Assembly: GCA_021029095.1 (NCBI GenBank)
Contig: JAJOHG010000036.1
Span: 1 to 64,000, forward strand
DNA: 64,000 nt
Direction of reading: 5' to 3'
From: Phellopilus nigrolimitatus
Taxonomy: Eukaryota; Basidiomycota; Agaricomycetes; Hymenochaetales; Hymenochaetaceae
Positions 594-62,477 of the stretch are shown piece by piece (positions within the stretch are counted from its first letter, which is position 1; each line of letters opens with the position of its first letter). The notes below the pieces were generated by a model. The model saw nothing but the letters and a program-made list of their open reading frames with translations, had not been told where the DNA came from and ran no database searches. A program made the translations under genes and the position numbers.

Positions 594-993
594 TGTTAGA
601 GCACACCACAAACCAAAAGGCTGAGGCGCAAACTCCAAAGCACAAGACGACAAGAGAGAGAGACAATGCTGAGCTGACTTAGTAGGGATCACACTTTGTG
701 GTGGATATTCTAAGAGAACTCGATTGAGTCTCCCAGTCATGTATTGCCTCCTTATATACCTAAGTCTAGTGCGCACAGACCAAGCAGTACACTACCTAAT
801 ATAGTTACACTAGTGGAGCGAGTGGAGCTAATGATGTCATAAGTGATGTCATCGTCAATGATGTCACTATGATGTCATGGTCTAGACTACGATGTCATAA
901 TGACGTCAGTGTAGAATGTTCTAGGCAGTCACGTGACTGAGAGGTCGCAAGTTCAAGACAAGGTAAAGGTAAAATAAAATACGTGTCATAACA
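594..993 (-). repeat. Gypsy 3' LTR (element is on the minus strand)
   Basis: 400 bp, TG...CA bounded, and the same as 6702-7101 as far as I can read it base by base. The adjoining bases 994-1006 are a polypurine tract in the element's sense (AAAGAGGGGGTGA), which overlaps the end of pol. Confidence 0.95.
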
Positions 994-6699: not shown

Positions 6700-6857
6700 A
6701 CTGTTAGAGCACACCACAAACCAAAAGGCTGAGGCGCAAACTCCAAAGCACAAGACGACAAGAGAGAGAGACAATGCTGAGCTGACTTAGTAGGGATCAC
6801 ACTTTGTGGTGGATATTCTAAGAGAACTCGATTGAGTCTCCCAGTCATGTATTGCCT

Positions 6858-31458: not shown

Positions 31459-32343
31459 TCACTTCTTCTCCCCCAGCTCCGAAAGAGAAATAACTCTTCC
31501 ATCTCCCTCGATTTCATCTTCCGCAAGCTTGATTAGGTTACGTGCGAGTTCGTCGTTCGTCATATCTTTGGGCTTGTCAAGGAAGTTGAAATCGTCTTGA
31601 GACAGGAATGCCAGGAAGTGTGCAAGATAGTCTTTGAGTGGCTTTTGTTCAAAGCCGGGATCCATCTCGTGGGATAACCTCTTGAAGACTGACTTGGAAT
31701 GTTCCTGGCTCAGTGGCATTTTGTTGAACTTGACGGCGGTATGGAGTTCGTATTCTTTGACCATTCTATCCTGGGCGTCGAACGTTGTCTTTGTCCAATC
31801 TGCTTTTGTCAAATTTCTAAATTCGGGTCGTTTCCAGGTTCCAACTCTGACGACCTTTTCATCACTGTCTAGTTCTTCGCTTGTGAGCAGTAGTTCGAGT
31901 AGTTTCCTGGTTCCAACTCTGACGACCTTTTCATCACTGTCTAGTTCTTCGCTTGTGAGCAGTAGTTCGGGTAGTTTCCTGGTTCCAACTCTGACGACCT
32001 TTTCATCACTGTCTAGTTCTTCGCTTGTGAGCAGTAGTTCGAGTAGTTTCCTGGTTCCAACTCTGACGACCTTTTCATCACTGTCTAGTTCTTCGCTTGT
32101 GAGCAGTAGTTCGGGTAGTTTCCTGGTTCCAACTCTGACGACCTTTTCATCACTGTCTAGTTCTTCGCTTGTGAGCAGTAGTTCGGGTAGTTTCCTGGTT
32201 CCAACTCTGACGACATTTTCATCACTGTCTAGTTCTTCGCTTGTGAGCAGTATATATGCGAGCCTGCATCCAAATCCGTGTTTCTTTGTAAAGACAAGGA
32301 AGAGAGACTCAGAATCGTATTTCGAGATATCAATTGGCGACAT
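31459..32343 (-). CDS. Unknown small-protein family member, copy b, with internal 24-residue repeats (294 aa)
   Basis: N- and C-terminal blocks are as in the family (ESLFLVFTKKHGFGCRLAYILL; YELHTAVKFNK; DYLAHFLAFLSQDDFNFLDK; SLSELGEKK). The variable middle is expanded into six near-identical copies of a 24-residue unit (LTSEELDSDEKVVRVGTRKL plus four residues). The 72-bp unit is a multiple of three, so the frame stays open for 294 codons. The repeated peptide is acidic-basic and not hydrophobic. The near-perfect DNA identity of the units indicates recent expansion. Confidence 0.65.
   Translation of the reverse strand: MSPIDISKYDSESLFLVFTKKHGFGCRLAYILLTSEELDSDENVVRVGTRKLPELLLTSEELDSDEKVVRVGTRKLPELLLTSEELDSDEKVVRVGTRKLLELLLTSEELDSDEKVVRVGTRKLPELLLTSEELDSDEKVVRVGTRKLLELLLTSEELDSDEKVVRVGTWKRPEFRNLTKADWTKTTFDAQDRMVKEYELHTAVKFNKMPLSQEHSKSVFKRLSHEMDPGFEQKPLKDYLAHFLAFLSQDDFNFLDKPKDMTNDELARNLIKLAEDEIEGDGRVISLSELGEKK
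31837..32268 (-). repeat. 72-bp coding minisatellite, six copies
   Basis: Units begin at 31837, 31909, 31981, 32053, 32125 and 32197. They differ mainly by GAG/GGG at one position and by a final divergent unit. It lies wholly inside copy b. Confidence 0.95.
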
Positions 32344-35811: not shown

Positions 35812-36742
35812 CACTTCAGGCACCCCCCTACAGAGGATCTAATAGGTATAACTCTCCCCAAGAGGGTTTGGCCTATTAGGTCCCCTTTTTCAGTGGCATT
35901 CCCAAGGGGTGTGGGTTTTCCCAGAGGTCTGGATTTTCCCAATTTCGGGAATTCCCCAGACTGATCTCAGGGTCTCTGGGAAAACCCAGCCATGGGTAAT
36001 CCCATAGCTTGTCACTGGCTGTCAGGGGGTCCTGGTTTGGGAATTCCCCAATAAATAGACCTAATTATAGCAGTTTTTTCTTTGCTGCATAATATACATA
36101 TACTGGATTCTATAGTACAAATTAGAGCCCAAACCACAGCTTGATCTGGCCTGGGATACCAGGGGTTTAGTACAAACTAGGTCAGAGGCAGAGGTCAGTC
36201 AGGACATCATTCCTCTGACAAAATACAGGGAATTGAGCCACAATGTATATTCAGGCTTTCTTTTTATTGTACATGTCAATATGCCATACCACAAGGATAA
36301 GTTCTCTTTCTAAAACTCTCATGGTAAAGTTGTAGACATATTGCACAGACTCATTTTAGAACAGTATAAAAGAAAACATGTTGGATTGCACAACTTATAT
36401 CCTAAGATACAGATAACATTATCCTGACTGTACGGCACTATACAATTTTACTATGTGATTATATGTAGTTATATGAGGCATTTACAAGCTTGGGAACTCC
36501 CAGCATGGGTATTCCCAAGCTTGGAAAATCCCAGCATGGACATTCCCAAGACTGGGAACTCCCAGCATGGGTATTCCCAAGCTTGGGAACTCCCAAGTTT
36601 GGGAGGTCCCAGCTTGGGCATTCCCAAGCTTGGGAAATCCCCAAAATAGGACATCCCAGCCAGTCAAAAGGTATTAAAGACAAACTGTAAATGCTGGCAA
36701 AATTCAAGCCTTTCACAACTTAGAATATTATAATAAGACAAA
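35812..36742. mobile_element. CACTTCAGG-ended DNA element, first end segment
   Basis: It starts CACTTCAGGCACCCCCCTAC directly after TCCGCGC. About 620 bp is nearly identical to 50039-50640, and the following part, including a GGGAA/CCCAAGCTTGGG-rich tandem array, matches 54431-54758. No transposase is visible. The ends match the 58-bp MITE at 12560. Superfamily not assigned. Confidence 0.65.
36485..36660. repeat. Tandem array based on CCCAAGCTTGGGAA
   Basis: Roughly 27-bp units alternate the palindrome TTCCCAAGCTTGGGAA with CTCCCAGCATGGG. All six frames are nearly open, which is a by-product of the repeat and not coding evidence. Confidence 0.85.
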
Positions 36743-36880: not shown

Positions 36881-37343
36881 TAGGGCATACCACGAGTCCC
36901 TAGAACTCGTGGGTACCCATGACCCGACCTGGACTACAGATCCGTATTCACGGATCACCTGTACACAGGTGAACCGTGGGAAACGGTTTTTTGCGGGTCC
37001 GGGTTGAGAATTCTTGATTTTTAATACCCATGGGTAGTTCACAGGTATATTTTTCACTGGTTCATTCATTTGTATATTGTACATATGCTGTATGTATCAA
37101 CTTGCATACTTCTAACTTATTCATTCAACAACCTAATATAACTTTACATGATATGTGTAATCAGTTAACACCCGTGAACAAACCCGTGACCTCTGTGACC
37201 TGGAACCGTGGGAATTTGGTGACCCGTAGATCCGTGTCCCAACGGGTCCAGGTCAAGCCGGGTCCGGGTTGAGGATTTTGGGTCACAGGTAGATCCGCCA
37301 ACAGGTCCAGGTCAACCCGGGGATCGACTCGTGGTATGCCCTA
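36881..37343 (+). mobile_element. 463-bp hAT MITE of the TAGGGC...ACGAG family
   Basis: The ends are TAGGGCATACCACGAGTC and its inverted copy. The 8-bp target duplication CTGCCGTC is at 36873-36880 and 37344-37351. Its left 170 bp (with TATTCACGGATCA and GCGGGTCCGGGTTGAG) and right 160 bp (with GGACCCGTTGGGACACGGAT) define the left-type and right-type subterminal regions shared with the cargo-carrying elements at 46493, 50642, 61012 and 62295. No cargo. Confidence 0.9.
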
Positions 37344-46170: not shown

Positions 46171-46798
46171 GCCAAATGGCAGTTTTTCCAGAGAATGTAT
46201 ACATTGCATAACCTGTAGTAGCGTAGCAGCTTGAAATATCTGCTCTGGCCTAATGTGACACTGCTCGAGAATATAAAAGACAATGAAATATCAGCGAATA
46301 TCGCAAATAAAAATAATAATCATAATCATAAAACGAGTGGGGTGCTTACATTGTGTGCTTTGAGCATATTTAGGATCGGAAAGCAGGAATGTGTTAGAAC
46401 TTACCTTGCTTACCTCACGACCCCCCTTACATCATTCCTTCCTCACTCCATTAGGCCCTTCACCTTTCCATTATCTTTCCCTTAGTTCATGGTAGAGCCT
46501 AGCACGACTCCCTGGAACCCGCAGGTATCCGTGACCCGACTCGGACTGCAGACCCGTGGGAAACGGGTTTTCGCGGGTCCGGGTTCAGAATTTGTGTTTT
46601 TCCAAAACCTGTGGGTAATTCACACAGGTTTTCAAGCTTAGAGTGGCCAAGGTAATTTATTTGTATATTGTATGTATGTACAGTATGTATGGTTAATATG
46701 CTTCGTAATCTACACATGTATGCTCCCAGGTCCACAGCAAAAAAAGGAAAGGTGCGAGCTCGCGAGGCCCGCCCGCGTCCGCCCGCCGAAAGCAGCAC

Positions 46799-48665
46799 CT
46801 AAAAGTCGACCAGGTCCACTTCGACGGAGCTCGCGACGATGCTCTCGAACGCCCGTTTCCCGAGCACGCCCTTCTGCGAGGGCGGGGCGACACGGAGCGC
46901 ATGCCTCCCCAAGTGCAAGCAACGCGCCGAGCATCGGCGTCCCGTTCGGCGAGTCCCTGCGGAGATACGCTATGGGGCAAAGTCAGTCGGGCGGGCGCAG
47001 CAAAAAACAGAAGCAAAACGCACTTGAAAACGCCCGGCGTGCCCGGCCGTGAGCCAGTCGCAGAAGCCGCGCGCGTCAGGCGCGTCTTCTTCCTGCGCTC
47101 CGCCTCGGCCTCGTAACCTCCGTGCGGCGCACAGCGTTGCGGTTCGCCTGTCGGTTGCGCTCGTTCACCTTCGTGAGGATGTCCTCCCTTTCGGACCGCA
47201 CCCTGCCGCGTATCGAGCGCGGCGCTCTCCGCGAAGTCGCGATGCATCTGCGCGAGCGCGCGCATGCGCACGAGCTCCGCGCGCTCGAGCGCGGCCTTCG
47301 TCTCGGTTGTGCGCGTCTTCGGCAGGCTGTGGTTCAGCTCTGCCTTGCGCGCGAGGATCGCAGGAATGTCCGCCTGTGCGCGCGTGTTTCCAGCAGCCGC
47401 TCCTTTCTGAGCGCGAGGGGCAAGCACGCACCTCCGTTAATAAATGACTCGTCAGCTTGGCGAACTGCTGCAGCTTCTCGATCATGCGCTTCGCAGGGAG
47501 CTTGACTTTCTCGTGCTCACACGTTGCTTTGATCCGGTGCCACTCGTCCTGTAGGATCATTGACCTTTTGTTCCGATGCCTGGTTGCTGGACAAACAGTC
47601 TGGTGCCTCTGTGAACGCCGCGTTGGAAACCTTGTCCATCGGGAACACTTTGATAGCCGCGCCGTGCCGCAGCTCGAGTCTGGTGTCGAAGTACTCGTTT
47701 TCAAATTTATAGGGCTTGGCTGGGTTTGAGCCGAGGTCTTGGGAGGCGCATGCTCAGAACACTAGAAACGACACAGGCGAGGACGCAACACGTACTTGCG
47801 ATCTCGCAAATTCGATACACGGGCTGGCCTTGGTCTGTACCAATAAGGTAGCGCACCCATGAACCTCTGCAGTGGACCAACCGTCAAAAGGTTCGAGGGA
47901 CGACAGAATGTCGGGCAAGTTACCTTTGACGAAATCCTCGAACCACGGCATCAATGCGTACTTGACAAGCTTGCTGCGTGAAAGTCGGCACTTCTCGAGA
48001 TCTTCCATAGTAAGGTCTTCGTCCTCGGGCTTCGTCTTGTTTAGGAGGCGTGACTCGCGCTCCTCCTGCTGCTCGAGTCTGCTGATCTGCCTGTCTTCCT
48101 CGTCTTCGGAGGATATCTCCATGTCCATCGGTGACGAAGAACACTTCTGCTTCGGTGAGTTGATCCTTGTCTGTTGGCAGTTTAGGAGAAGGATGCAGAC
48201 CAGCAATGAACAACGCACCCGCTTCTTCTCGCTCTTCGCCTTCCTTTTCGCCTTCAGTACGTCCAACTTACATGTCTTCTCCTTCGTTGCTCCCCTCACT
48301 TGATGGGCGCCTAGGAAGCATTATCAGAGAGAAGTAATTGGTGCACAGAATCCAGTAGTCACGCTTTGCGGCCTTAAGACACGTTGTCCTTGCGCTGTGC
48401 GCGCAGCATCTGATTGAGATTGTGTTTGTCCTGGATGTGCTGCATTTCCTCCAGATGTTAAGCAAGGATGTTCTCGCGTTCAATTTCGGGAAGCTGTATG
48501 AGCCTGTAAAGATAGAAACTGAGTCGAGCCAGATCGCGCGAAACGGTAGATGCGATACTCACTTGACTCCGTCCGTCTCGTCCACGAATTTTCCTTCCAA
48601 TGGGTCTGGGTTCAAGTTGTCCTCTTCGCTTTCATACTCTTGCTCAGAATCAGAATTGGCCACCA
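46799..48665 (-). pseudogene. RTF1: Captured RTF1-like gene (Paf1-complex subunit, Plus3 domain)
   Basis: In minus-strand order: NSDSEQEYESEEDNLNPDPL then EGKFVDETDGVK, a KAAKRD region, LKAKRKAKSEKKRVR, acidic SSEDEEDRQISRLE, the Plus3 domain (MEDLEKCRLSRSKLVKYALM, PWFEDFVK, an intron, GSWVRYLIGTDQGQPVYRIC, FENEYFDTRLELRHGAAIKV, FPMDKVSNAAF), EWHRIKATCEHEKVKLPAKR, ADIPAILARKAELN, and a C-terminus ending ESIVASSVEVDLVDF with its stop at 46799. Rtf1 links Paf1C to chromatin and transcription elongation. The N-terminus is missing, several frame changes are present and introns are retained. Confidence 0.85.
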
Positions 48666-48689
48666 CACTTTAATGCGGTGGGCGAGGGT

Positions 48690-48880
48690 GATGGGCCCGC
48701 CCGCGCGGGGTCGACGGTATTGAAAAAGCCAGTCTGGGCTGCGGGTGACGCGGTGTCGGTGCGTGCGCACTGCTGGGACCGGGAGCAGCATGCGATGGCG
48801 AGGGAGGCGAGGACGCGGGTGGGCTACCTGGAGGCCGTGCGTGGAGTTGGCGAGGAAGACCCGCAAGGAGCTGTGAACAA
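48690..48880 (+). other. Unidentified cargo segment
   Basis: A GC-rich plus-strand open frame (VLKKPVWAAGDAVSV ... AREARTRVGYLEAVRG) lies between the RTF1 piece and the right-type end. It is open on both strands and unrecognised. It may be an exon from another host gene. Confidence 0.35.
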
Positions 48881-49452
48881 ACCGTGACCTCCGTGACCTG
48901 GAACCGTGGGAATTTGGTGACCTGCAGATCCGTGTCCCAACGGGTCCAGGTCAAGCCGGGTCCAGGTCTAGAATTTTTTGCCACGGGTGACCCGCCAACA
49001 GGTCCGGGTCAACCCGAGGTTCTACTCGTGCTATGCTCTAGTTCATGGCCTGACCCCTTCCTCATTGTACGCGCCCCTCCTGGGTGTTCCCCGCTCCACG
49101 CTCCACTGCCTCATTCCATGCTCCACAGTACACGCCCCTTACGGGCCTTTCCCTCACGTTCCCCTCATGTCATGCTGCGCATGACTCCATAGCCCCACTG
49201 ACATCATAGTCAGTCTCACAGTATATATAGGTACATCGCTGGGACCTTAAGCCCCAGCTTGACCTCCTGTTCTATAGCTAGCATAGTCTTGCTATTCATC
49301 GCCCTTGCTCTTCATAGTCTTGCGCTCAGCACTTCACAGTCTTGCCATAGTCATCGTCGCCTTGTCACAGTCAAGCCTCACGTCACTCGTCACGTCACTG
49401 TCCACAGTCACGCTCCTCGCTCCATTAGGCAAGACCCTGTTACTCCGTAACA

Positions 49453-50038: not shown

Positions 50039-50828
50039 CACTTCAGGCACCCCCCTACAGAGGACCTAATAGGTATAACTCTCCCCAAGAGGGTTTGGCC
50101 TATTAGGTCCCCTTTTTCAGTGGCATTCCCAAGGGGTGTGGGTTTTCCCAGAGGTCTGGATTTTCCCAATTTCGGGAATTCCCCAGACTGATCTCAGGGT
50201 CTCTGGGAAAACCCAGCCATGGGTAATCCCATAGCTTGTCACTGGCTGTCAGGGGGTCCTGGTTTGGGAATTCCCCAATAAATAGACCTAATTATAGCAG
50301 TTTTTTCTTTGCTGCATAATATACATATACTGGATTCTATAGTACAAATTAGAGCCCAAACCACAGCTTGATCTGGCCTGGGATACCAGGGGTTTAGTAC
50401 AAACTAGGTCAGAGGCAGAGGTCAGTCAGGACATCATTCCTCTGACAAAATACAGGGAATTGAGCCACAATGTATATTCAGGCTTTCTTTTTATTGTACA
50501 TGTCAATATGCCATACCACAAGGATAAGTTCTCTTTCTAAAACTCTCATGGTAAAGTTGTAGACATATTGCACAGACTCATTTTAGAACAGTATAAAAGA
50601 AAACATGTTGGATTGCACAACTTATATCCTAAGATACAGATTAGGGCTCATCACGAGTCCACCCGTGGGTTGACCCGGACCCGTTGGCGGGTCACCCGTG
50701 ACAAAAAAACCTCGACCCGGATCCGCCTTGACCCGGACCCGTTGGGACACAGATCCACGGGTCACCCAATTCCCACGGTTCCAGGTCACGGGTTTGATCA
50801 CGGCCCCTGCGGGTCATCTTGACATGAC

Positions 50829-51735
50829 TTTGCGCTGTTCAGGCTCACCGGTGACACTTCCGAGAACACTCAGGACCTCCTTCTCCTCGATGTCGCGCCG
50901 CTCTCGCTCGGTATCGAGACTGCCGGCGGTGTCATGACCGCGCTCATCAAGCGTAACACAACTGTCCCGACGAAGAAGTCCGAAATCTTCTCGACGTACG
51001 TGGACAACCAGCCCGGTGTCCTTATCCAGGTCTTCGAGGGCGAGCGTGCGCGCACAAAGGACAACAACCTCCTCGGCAAGTTCGAGCTTTCTGGTATCCC
51101 TCCTGCGCCGCGTGGTGTTCCTCAGGTTGAGGTCACCTTCGACATCGACGGTATCCTTAATGTATCCGCCTTGGATAAGACGACCGGAAAGTCGAACCGC
51201 ATCACAATCACCAACGACAAGGGTCGTCTTACGAAGGAGGAGATCGAGCGTATGGTCAGCGACGCTGAGAAGTTCGAGGGTAAGCTATTATTCAGTTCTA
51301 TCGTCCATATTGAAATCTGACTATATTTTCTTTATAGCTGAGGATGAGGAAGCCGCTTCGCCCATCACTGCCAAGAACGGCCTCGAGTCCTACGCGTAAA
51401 ACCTGCGCAACTCGATCATGGATGAGAAGGCGAAGGACAAGTTCGACGCGGACGACAAGACGCGCCTCGAGACCGCAGTGAACGAGGCGATTTCGTGGCT
51501 CGACAACTCGCAGGAGGCGTCGAAGGAGGAGTACAAGAAGAAGCAGAAGGAGCTCGAAGGCATCGCGGGCCCGATCATGCAGAAGTTCTACCAATCTGCA
51601 GGTGCGGGTGGAGCGCCTGGCGCGGACGGCTTCCCGGGTGCGGGCGGATTCCTTGGTGGCCCGGGGGCTCCTGGCGGCTTCCCAGGAGCCGGTGGCGCTC
51701 CGGACGCGTCAGAGGATAGTCCCAGTGTCGAGGGA
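50829..51735 (+). pseudogene. Captured cytosolic HSP70 fragment
   Basis: [20 protein letters not shown] then [20 protein letters not shown], the substrate-binding domain ([20 protein letters not shown]), an intron (about 51281-51338), AKNGLESYA, a TAA where the family has Tyr, [21 protein letters not shown] and a Gly/Ala/Pro-rich tail. The sequence breaks at PSVE, just before the EEVD terminus expected of cytosolic Hsp70. The nucleotide-binding domain is absent. The stop codon, missing tail and retained intron show a nonfunctional DNA-level copy. Confidence 0.93.
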
Positions 51736-51975
51736 GGTCAACTTATTGTGATGCGGACGAACCGCATCCGTCTACCTATTTTCCTCATCAATTCAATAGC
51801 GTCCCCGGCCCAGCAACTACCCAGGTTGGCAGGGATATCTGTTCATCGATGAGTGCATCGCTATTCTCCCTAAAGTGCGCCGCTGAACGATAACGTCGAC
51901 GCGTCCGACAGAAAGTGCCGCAGTGGGATGTGCCAGGACAAGCTCCGGGCGCCGCGCAACTAGCTCCCCCGATGC

Positions 51976-52795
51976 GAGTACGACGACAATGATGATGGTG
52001 CGGGCAGCCTTACACGCCAGCTCACGGAGACAGCGGTTGGCGTCCGCGAGATGAGCAAGCAACTCGGTTAGTCATATTCTTTGGCTTGGCGATCTCGTCA
52101 TTTGGTTGCAGAGGGTGTGCTACGGTGCGGTTTCTTTCCTCCATACACTATTGTGTTCTCTTTTCTGGTTTGAGTACTTACTGATCAATGTATCCTGCAG
52201 GCCGCGCTCGCGTGCGCTCGAACATCCAAAATGTGCTCATCATCACCCAGGTGCGGGACAACAGCCTCATCAAGCTCACGCACGAGCTCGCACTCTACCT
52301 GATGCAGAAGCCGCGCTACGGCGGGCGTGGGCTCGTCGTGTACGTCGACAACCAGCTGTGCTACAGCAAGCGCTTCGACACGGCCGGCATCGAGCACGAG
52401 CACCCCGAGCTCTTCGTGCCCTTCCCGCGGCGCCGGAGCTCGAGCAGCAACTCGCTCGCGTCGATGGCAAACGGCGCCGGCAACGGCAACGATGCAGAGT
52501 TTCAGACGAACCCCGAGGGCCAGCTGCGCTACTGGACGAGCGAGATGTGCAACAAGAGCCCGCACCTCCTCGACTTTGTCGTCACTGTGCGTGTCTTCTT
52601 ACCCCCCACGCTTCGCGTCCGGCTGGCTGACACCCCGGCTGTAATAGCTCGGCGGCGACGGCACTGTGCTCTTCGCGTCGTGGCTCTTCCAGCACATCAT
52701 GCCGCCGGTGCTGCAGTTCGCGCTCGGCTCGCTCGGCTTCCTCACGAACTTCGACTTCGCGGACCACCGCGCGGTGATGGCCGCGCTTCACTCAA
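51976..52795 (+). pseudogene. Captured NAD(H) kinase fragment
   Basis: DGAGSLTRQLTETAVGVREM (exon 1), an intron ending CTGCAG at about 52200, RARVRSNIQNVLIITQVRDN, LIKLTHELALYLMQKPRYGG, TSEMCNKSPHLLDFVVT, an intron, then the NAD-kinase signature LGGDGTVLFASWLF and FALGSLGFLTNFDF. The active-site GGDG is therefore present, but the sequence breaks shortly after FADHRAVM and joins SEC24 sequence. NAD kinases make NADP from NAD and ATP; this copy lacks the C-terminal half. Confidence 0.88.
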
Positions 52796-53452
52796 AACGG
52801 CGGCAGTATGCAGCAGGCGCGACGCAGGCATACTACGGCGGTGCGGATGGTTATGACGCGGATACAGCGCCAGGATGCCGCCTGCACCAGGTGTGGTGGC
52901 GGGCACGCAACCTGCTCCAGGTGGGCAACTCTTCACGCTCAGCCTTGTCGGCGAGAGCCAGTTTGCGGGGCGGCAGACTCAGCAGTCGTTCCAGTCCGCC
53001 ACACTTGAACACATCAACGCACCGGGCTTCGGTAGCGGCGCACCCGTGCATCCACCTGTGCAGCCGGGATACCAGCGGCAGATGGGCACGATGACAGACC
53101 AGTTCTCGCAGATGGGGCTCGGAGGCGGGCAAAAGCCACACGTGCTGTATACCACAAAGCTACTGATGGTCCTGCCTGACCCGCGCGAACTGTACGCGCT
53201 GCCTCCTGAGTTCCACATACTGCCGAATGCGTGCATCTCACCATTGCCGCACGCGAATGCGGACCCATCTTACCAGCGCTGCACAATCAATGCAGTTCCG
53301 ACGACCCTCGCGCTGCTCGACAAATCCAAACTACCTCTTGGACTCGTCCTCACGCCGTGCCGCTCACTCAAGGAGGGTGCTATTCCGGTCCCACTCGTCA
53401 CCGACACTGTCATTGTGTGCTGCCGCTACTGCAGGACATCGTTTGTGTAGTT
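52796..53452 (+). pseudogene. Captured SEC24 fragment, N-terminal part (COPII coat)
   Basis: [20 protein letters not shown], a frame change, PPAPGVVAG ... [75 protein letters not shown], then [17 protein letters not shown]. The zinc-finger cysteines (Sec24 has RCRRCRxY) are partly altered. Sec24 selects cargo in COPII vesicles. The fragment ends within the zinc finger. The NAD-kinase/SEC24 join at about 52796 is an open chimeric frame for about 100 codons. Confidence 0.85.
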
Positions 53453-53728
53453 CATGATGGTGGCAACCAATGGTACTGATGTACATACCTACATACACAC
53501 AAGATATAATATTGCTACTCTATCCTTGAAAACCTGTGTGTACTACCCGCAGGTTTTCAAAAAACACAATTTCTCAACCCAGACCCGTGACAATCTGTTT
53601 CCCACGGATCACCCGTTGACGGGTGATCCGTGAATACGGATCAGCAGTCCGGGTTGAATCACGAGTCTCCACGGGTATCAAGGACTCGTGATGAGCCCTA
53701 ATACAGATAACATTATCCTGACTACTAG

Positions 53729-54421
53729 TAGTGTTCTCAAAGGTCGGGTCTGACCCGCTCTGACCCGGGGTCGACCCTCGACCCGACCCGCGGGTCAGGT
53801 CGCTATCGGGCCAGGTCAAGGTGGGTCGGAGGTGGGTCAGGTCGAGGGTCAGCAATCTTGAAGAAATCCTGACCCGCACCGACCCCGGGTCAACCCTGAC
53901 CTGACCCCCGACCCGGACAGCCTCTCAACCTATCATAAATGAAAATCAATTGAAAAATTAAGCTATCGCAGTTCACACGACAATCGAATCTGGACATCAG
54001 AATTCCGAAAATTTCCAAAGAAAATTAAAATGAAGTAAAATGTGTCACATACATAGACAAATATGGTGTGTAATATACTCTTGTGACATGCTTATGAATC
54101 AATCCTTAGTTTGTAAACTGTTGCTTTGGCTCGTTGGAAAGGCAAATCAATCTCGGACAATTAGTAAAGCATAGTACATGTAATATCTGAAAAAGTATTG
54201 TGCAGCCTTTCTTTCCAATATTCACTGAAGGAAACTCAAGATTTTTTTTTTTCTTGCGGGTCAGCGGGTCGACCCTGGGTCGACCCTCTGGGTCGGGTCA
54301 GCAGCGGGTCGGAGCAGGTCAGGCCGCAGGTCAGCAAAAGTCAGAAAAGCTGACCCAGGTCGGGGTCAGGGTCAGACAAAATGTGCCCCGACCTGACCTG
54401 ACCCGACCTTTGAGAACACTA
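53729..54421. mobile_element. Small DNA element with TAGTGTTCTCAAAGGTCGGG ends
   Basis: The 693-bp element has inverted ends TAGTGTTCTCAAAGGTCGGG. The sequence ATCCTGACT occurs at 53715-53723 and 54422-54430, and the empty site is visible near 36421. Five extra bases (ACTAG) sit between the left duplication and the left end. Both subterminal regions are dense in GACC/GGGTCGACC repeats. No gene inside. Probably hAT-like, but a different family from the TAGRGC elements. Confidence 0.75.
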
Positions 54422-61011: not shown

Positions 61012-61299
61012 TAGAGCTCATCACGAGCCCCTGATTCCCGTGGAAACCTGTGATTCAACCCGGACTGCTGATCCGTATTCACGGATCAGGGTGATCCGTG
61101 GGAAATGGATTGTTGCGGGTCCGGGTTGAGAAATTGTGATTTTTCAATACCTGCAGGTAATTCACAGGTTTTCAAGGAAAGAATAGCAAAGGTCCATTTA
61201 TAATATATCATATGTATGTATAGTATGTACGTGGCAGCGCTATCAGTTGAACAGACTTTTTGTTGCACGCACACGCATGACCACTTCGAGTATGATAGT

Positions 61300-62294: not shown

Positions 62295-62477
62295 TAGAGC
62301 CTGGCACGAGTAGAACCTCGGGTTGACCTGGACCTGTTGGCGGGTCACCCGTGGCTTAAATTTCCCAACCTGGACCCGGCTTGACCCGGACCTCTTCGGA
62401 CTCGGACCTACGGGTCCCCAAAAACCCACGGGTGCAGGTCACGGAGGTCAAGGGTCAGTTTGCGGATCTTCACAGGT

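Follow-up and report, generated by a model that had tools for sequence, protein, structure and literature searches.

The closest described counterparts of the element reported here are hAT transposons that transduplicate histone H3 in the ascomycetes Pyrenophora tritici-repentis (PMC3538342) and Pseudocercospora fijiensis (PMC6710886): fungal hAT elements by which a housekeeping gene was captured and amplified, with, in P. fijiensis, terminal inverted repeats (TIRs) of 20 bp and an 8-bp target site duplication (TSD). The Pack-hAT or Pack-TYPE elements of maize and rice (PMC8903248) and Hatvine-6 of grapevine (PMC2528002) are reported to join common hAT ends to variable interiors built from exons and introns of the host. 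Of 370 metazoan Pack-TIRs, 208 are likewise described as having hAT-type ends around host DNA (PMC8277862), and the Helitrons of Pleurotus ostreatus are basidiomycete DNA transposons carrying extra genes (PMC4289320). The locus analysed here is a stretch of 64,000 nucleotides from the wood-decay basidiomycete Phellopilus nigrolimitatus (Agaricomycetes, Hymenochaetales; contig JAJOHG010000036.1, positions 1 to 64,000, forward strand; hereafter the window). The element at 50642-53700 (the window element) is very likely a Pack-type (transduplicating) hAT-like transposon. Inside, it consists of genomic HSP70, SEC24 and NAD-kinase DNA that includes introns, and the genes themselves remain elsewhere in the genome. 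The histone H3 elements are reported to carry H3 as the captured gene and often a hAT transposase or domain, the P. fijiensis copy being intron-less (PMC3538342, PMC6710886), whereas the P. nigrolimitatus family holds pieces of many genes, retains introns and is nested, and no transposase was found among the interior ORFs scanned. The plant elements differ in their hosts and in that Hatvine-6 elements share transposase-coding sequence (PMC2528002); the metazoan Pack-TIRs are reported as mostly single-copy, with four multicopy cases (PMC8277862), whereas several cargo-bearing types are multicopy in P. nigrolimitatus.

An initial annotation, made from the letters of the window, had described a hAT element with captured gene pieces, and this reading is supported by donor genes in the same genome and by a second copy, C346, with a TSD of its own. 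The perfect 19-bp inverted ends, the 8-bp target duplication and the empty site at 36.4 kb that it had reported were all confirmed (Table 1). At three or fewer mismatches the 19-mer TIR has four matches in the window, the element's own two counted, for 0.01 expected. The repeat copy at 35812-36414 is 99.83% identical to 50039-50641 over 603 bp and runs unbroken through ATACAGATAACATTATCCTGACT, a true empty site; the window element moved into a site that was formerly empty. C346 is a full copy (97-98% identity) with the TSD TTACTTGG, and no match was found between its flanks and those of the window element; the element has inserted together with its cargo at no fewer than two different places. 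The genome is repeat-rich and some of its segments are duplicated, a background in which repeat ends and gene fragments could be separate duplications that adjoin by chance. This explanation is rejected as extremely improbable on account of C346, where ends and cargo recur together between different outside flanks and with their own TSD, and other cargo arrangements occur between the same ends. A Pack-type element is marked by TIRs that enclose host gene sequence, by donors elsewhere in the genome and by cargo copies at other sites with their own TSD, all of which are seen here. We note that the C346 copy holds an extra insertion of ~721 bp (L009 3427-4147) with a 5-bp duplication, inside its HSP70 part.

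Table 1. Coordinates of the window element, its parts and related features of the window
Feature	Coordinates	Strand	Remarks
Non-autonomous hAT-like (Pack-type) element	50642..53700	+	3059 bp; paired TIRs and exact 8-bp TSD; second copy C346, 97-98%
TSD ATACAGAT, left	50634..50641	.	exact
TSD ATACAGAT, right	53701..53708	.	exact
TIR TAGGGCTCATCACGAGTCC, left	50642..50660	+	exact, 19 bp
TIR TAGGGCTCATCACGAGTCC, right	53682..53700	-	exact, 19 bp
Left end region	50642..50821	+	first ~120-170 bp common to family members compared
12-bp non-HSP70 junction ACATGACTTTGC	50822..50833	+	common to C346, C278 and Y repeat, partly to C619; not in HSP70 gene
HSP70 piece (C-terminal part to just past stop region)	50833..51749	+	93% to C555 gene
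HSP70 intron, retained	51280..51337	+	58 bp; sequence; donor interrupted at same place between its ORFs
TAA nonsense codon in HSP70 piece	51397..51399	+	sequence
SEC24 piece, first part (5' leader, exon 1, start of next exon)	51767..51971	+	internal loss of ~77 bp; divisions assigned from donor gene
NAD kinase piece, two introns, within SEC24 piece	51975..52780	+	sequence comparison
SEC24 piece, second part, to zinc-finger region	52781..53475	+	sequence comparison
Right end region	53476..53700	+	common to family
Empty target site in 99.8% identical repeat copy	36407..36414	.	repeat comparison
Cargo-free member, same family (miniature inverted-repeat transposable element, MITE)	36881..37343	-	463 bp, TSD CTGCCGTC
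Second Pack-type element in window	46493..49040	-	2548 bp, TSD GTTCATGG, Plus-3 domain gene piece
Empty site ATTGAGTC of C278 element	723..730	.	second one at 6831-6838, same window

The three captured genes named in the initial annotation are recognised in the cargo. The HSP70 piece has a Pfam match (E 7e-54), the best PDB match of the SEC24 piece is Sec24 (E 1e-15), and the NAD-kinase piece matches database proteins named NAD+ kinase, its donor matching PF01513; the window's own NAD-kinase reading frames gave no Pfam match and no PDB match (52055-52627 among those searched in PDB). The TAA nonsense codon proved real, and the cargo does hold introns, one in HSP70 and two in NAD kinase. Capture of a transcript or retrocopy has been reported for a fungal hAT, in the case of histone H3 in P. 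fijiensis (PMC6710886); for HSP70 and NAD kinase it is rejected because their introns are retained, and we give it almost no probability here. The NAD-kinase/SEC24 join is indeed in frame, reading ...FADHRAVMAALHSKRRQYAAG..., but reading stays in frame for just ~28 codons beyond it. Similarly, the claim that the whole interior is host gene sequence stands for the HSP70, SEC24 and NAD-kinase DNA, but has to be amended for the short fillers that separate the cargo pieces and for SEC24, which is split in two around NAD kinase.

Donors for all three pieces, whose absence would have spoken against capture, were found in the genome assembly (56.4 Mb, 635 contigs): an HSP70 gene on C555 (93% overall to the window piece), NAD kinase genes on C177 (88%) and C112 (87%), and a SEC24 gene on C57 (86%) in which the zinc-finger and trunk domains are present and which adjoins a mitochondrial ribosomal protein S5 gene whose product is 100% identical to a P. 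nigrolimitatus protein. The C555 gene covers positions 1 to 519 of the 599 of the Pfam domain, in three open reading frames (ORFs). Over a 431-column HSP70 coding stretch the window piece differs from C555 at 15 sites, and because 12 of these are third codon positions, much of the divergence would seem to have arisen in a selected gene. C177 and C112 agree at 96% across the 8.5 kb that surround NAD kinase, and both nuclear haplotypes are thus probably present in the assembly. As a side observation, the last stretch of the C555 gene shows a frame shift (L010 ~4240), either an assembly error or a real lesion.

The HSP70 piece of the window element is also common to a longer repeat, here called Y, which raises the question of its immediate source. 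In the ten fetched Y loci (L011-L020), the HSP70 piece adjoins family ends within the longer repeat; nine of the ten have two ends in like orientation at a spacing of 43-49 bp, the left borders vary between copies, and the right border is CCTGATG in eight. It could be argued that the piece came from a Y repeat that already carried HSP70 rather than from the gene, as Y has the same 12-bp non-gene junction on the HSP70 5' side as the elements and the piece lies against family ends at all ten loci. We consider this origin unlikely. In a tree that took in seven of the ten Y copies, Y groups beside the C278 element (100/97), the window and C346 pieces standing near the C555 gene, and Y has family ends of its own, so that it more likely holds a decayed element. 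We take Y to be a larger repeat that has come to enclose a family member, and the tree suggests, not decisively, a source of HSP70 other than Y. A single origin of all junction-bearing copies, elements plus Y, was not rejected in the approximately unbiased test (p-AU 0.17).

Related elements indicate that capture was stepwise, in an order that can be read from them, because in the C113 element (TSD CATGCAAT) SEC24 continues without a break through the position that NAD kinase occupies in the window element; neither the HSP70 piece nor the NAD-kinase piece has a match in C113. C619 has HSP70, NAD kinase and SEC24 in the same order as the window element, no right end having been found in the stretch fetched, and C278 (TSD ATTGAGTC) carries HSP70 plus other SEC24 stretches. 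At the NAD-kinase join about six or seven SEC24 bases are lost and a few filler bases are present, and no TSD or TIR was found around the edges of the NAD-kinase piece; for these reasons NAD kinase was most likely added within SEC24 by a repair-like event and not by transposon insertion. We propose that a hAT transposase supplied in trans would move the element, that a break or stalled fork arising within it would start repair, that the gap would be filled by copying a host gene, with template switching, and that the enlarged element would then spread. Gap-filling and template-switching models have been proposed for Pack-TIRs (PMC8277862).

The single captured-gene element of the initial annotation is real, but it belongs to a far larger family: 126 TIR sites were found genome-wide at two or fewer mismatches, and none with a reversed-pattern control. 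End searches, with 40 candidates scored out of 168 for left ends and out of 153 for right ends, gave ends that pair, by eye, into elements of mostly 1.5-3.8 kb. Fifteen elements were fetched by their ends alone, cargo not being considered in the choice, and 14 of them have exact 8-bp TSDs (8/8 in one set, 6/7 in the other). The TSDs of such elements as the window element, C346, C278 and the 36881-37343 MITE were found by requiring a match and are not an unbiased sample. L046 and L050 (98% DNA identity) are probably one insertion that was duplicated, since they share the same TSD. Host-gene pieces occur in 12 of the 14 end-chosen elements that came from two of the three fetches, L050 being counted by its identity to L046 and the match in L044 being weak.

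Altogether, 24 members with both ends were examined, comprising 14 elements (window, C346, C113, C278, C605, C434, C36, C1, C112, C629, C135, C179, C379 and one in L018), seven more (L044-L050), the second window element and two MITEs; C619 was left out because its right end was not found. In 20 of the 24, pieces of host genes can be recognised, and twelve genes are represented. The scan took in selected ORFs of each interior and may have missed some genes, and the cargo of C346, C113, C278, C605 and L050 was recognised from its DNA identity with a relative or donor, not from a profile match. The four without such pieces are the two MITEs and L048 and L049, which gave no Pfam match among the ORFs tried; neither MITE (36881-37343 of the window and a 375-bp one in L027) has room for cargo. 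The twelve firm cargo genes are the three of the window element together with coatomer beta' (PDB match, E 2e-33), STT3, EF-G, ubiquitin hydrolase (UCH), a p21-binding domain, carbamoyl-phosphate synthase, SMC2, G-alpha and the Plus-3 domain gene of the second window element; a weak match to an NAD-dependent epimerase is counted beyond these. Putative source loci, by DNA match, are C90 for EF-G (92% over ~2.5 kb) and C23 and C612 for coatomer beta' (90-91%). Of the element with STT3, a search with its 2036-bp interior found three more copies that match throughout at 100% (rounded) and a fourth that matches 1772 bp of it at 98%, and such identity would point either to recent spread or to haplotype copies.

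The family can be placed among known transposons by its 8-bp TSDs and by its short TIRs, whose tip, TAGGGCTC, is hAT-like; hAT elements such as Ac have the TIR tip (C/T)AGGG. Helitrons are rolling-circle elements with neither TIR nor TSD, in which the P. ostreatus elements differ from this family, and a Helitron is ruled out since the window element has both. The first eight bases of the window element's ends are the same as in a 5-kb family of this genome that encodes a Dimer_Tnp_hAT domain, with the TIR TAGGGCTCCGCAACGTAC and, at C334, the 8-bp TSD ATGTGATG. Three copies of the 5-kb family (C257 333937-338943, C74 10464-15470 and C334 571784-576791) show 99.7-99.95% identity in a comparison of 2 kb. 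The hAT assignment, which is the best supported, is based on ends and TSD and not on a linked transposase. A separate observation is that the 5-kb family has many TIR pairs ~0.85 kb apart, probably recently active MITEs.

Several points weigh against the reading of the window element as a Pack-type hAT-like transposon. No transposase domain was found among the ORFs of element interiors scanned with Pfam, a selection from which the window element and its relatives appear to be non-autonomous. None of the seven hAT dimerisation matches in the genome lies between TIR pairs among the sites listed, which are part of the 126. A linked transposase was sought with the profiles PF05699, PF04937, PF14372 and PF18758 and none was found; PF04937 and PF14372 gave no matches at all, nor did their controls. 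The TSD consensus of hAT elements is nTnnnnAn, and the TSDs of the family show, by eye, no clear consensus, this one included. L044 alone among the 15 end-chosen elements is without an exact TSD, and in the HSP70 tree a clade of the elements alone was rejected (p-AU 0.0006), owing to the placement of Y beside C278. Finally, KDZ matches are abundant in the genome (73), and Zisupton and Zisupton-1_PGr (Dileera) are reported to make 8-bp TSDs (PMC12730594). The same Pack-type element could therefore have been mobilised by a Zisupton/Dileera-like KDZ transposase, which the 73 KDZ matches would favour over the seven hAT dimerisation matches. We hold such mobilisation to be improbable, given that the ends begin exactly like those of the 5-kb Dimer_Tnp_hAT family with its 8-bp TSD and that no KDZ match was seen, by eye, between paired TIRs among the sites listed.

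The histone H3 elements of ascomycetes are precedents for the capture of genes by fungal hATs. No many-gene, nested hAT capture in a basidiomycete was found in the literature searched, in keeping with the earlier remark that such cases are little described, and with the present family, hAT-type capture of many genes is extended to a basidiomycete. Exon shuffling by DNA transposons through Pack-type capture has been studied well, but the repair event itself can seldom be seen. In P. nigrolimitatus, a single genome contains the donors, an element with SEC24 but without NAD kinase (C113), elements with both SEC24 and NAD kinase (window, C346, C619), cargo-free members and many parallel captures, and the order and junctions of capture are therefore directly readable. 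The public gene model DFH11DRAFT_1783632 (171 aa) lies wholly within the cargo of the C113 element (L023 3860-4426), which it matches at 90% over the aligned length with a gap consistent with its annotated intron; transposon cargo is therefore being annotated as genes, which calls for caution with the gene models of such genomes. C619 has a truncated HSP70 frame that starts from an ATG foreign to the gene and stays open for ~120 codons, as far as a nested MITE of 375 bp. It is possible, if rather doubtful, that the family acts as a standing exon-shuffling engine of this mushroom lineage, in which repeated uptake of housekeeping genes by break repair, their stacking within one another and their spread would lead to some chimeric frames being expressed as new proteins.

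Other observations concern further elements of the family and of the window. L036 (C605:4450-14400) is a ~99% copy of the coatomer-beta' element of C434, enlarged by ~7.6 kb in which there is a gag-pol frame, Gypsy-like as judged by eye. One stretch of the second window element is 81% similar to the interior of the C434 element, and PDB searches with its stretches 47168-47761 and 46696-47436 gave no match. Single family ends at 61012-61230 (right) and 62295-62444 (left), whose orientations make no pair, are probably remnants. A 699-bp hAT-type MITE of another family (53723-54421; TIR TAGTGTTCTCAAAGG, TSD ATCCTGAC) begins 14 bp past the duplication of the window element, and its terminus is also present at the hAT-domain loci L029 and L031. 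A 72-bp tandem repeat occupies 31822-32252 of the window in six copies with 98% matches.

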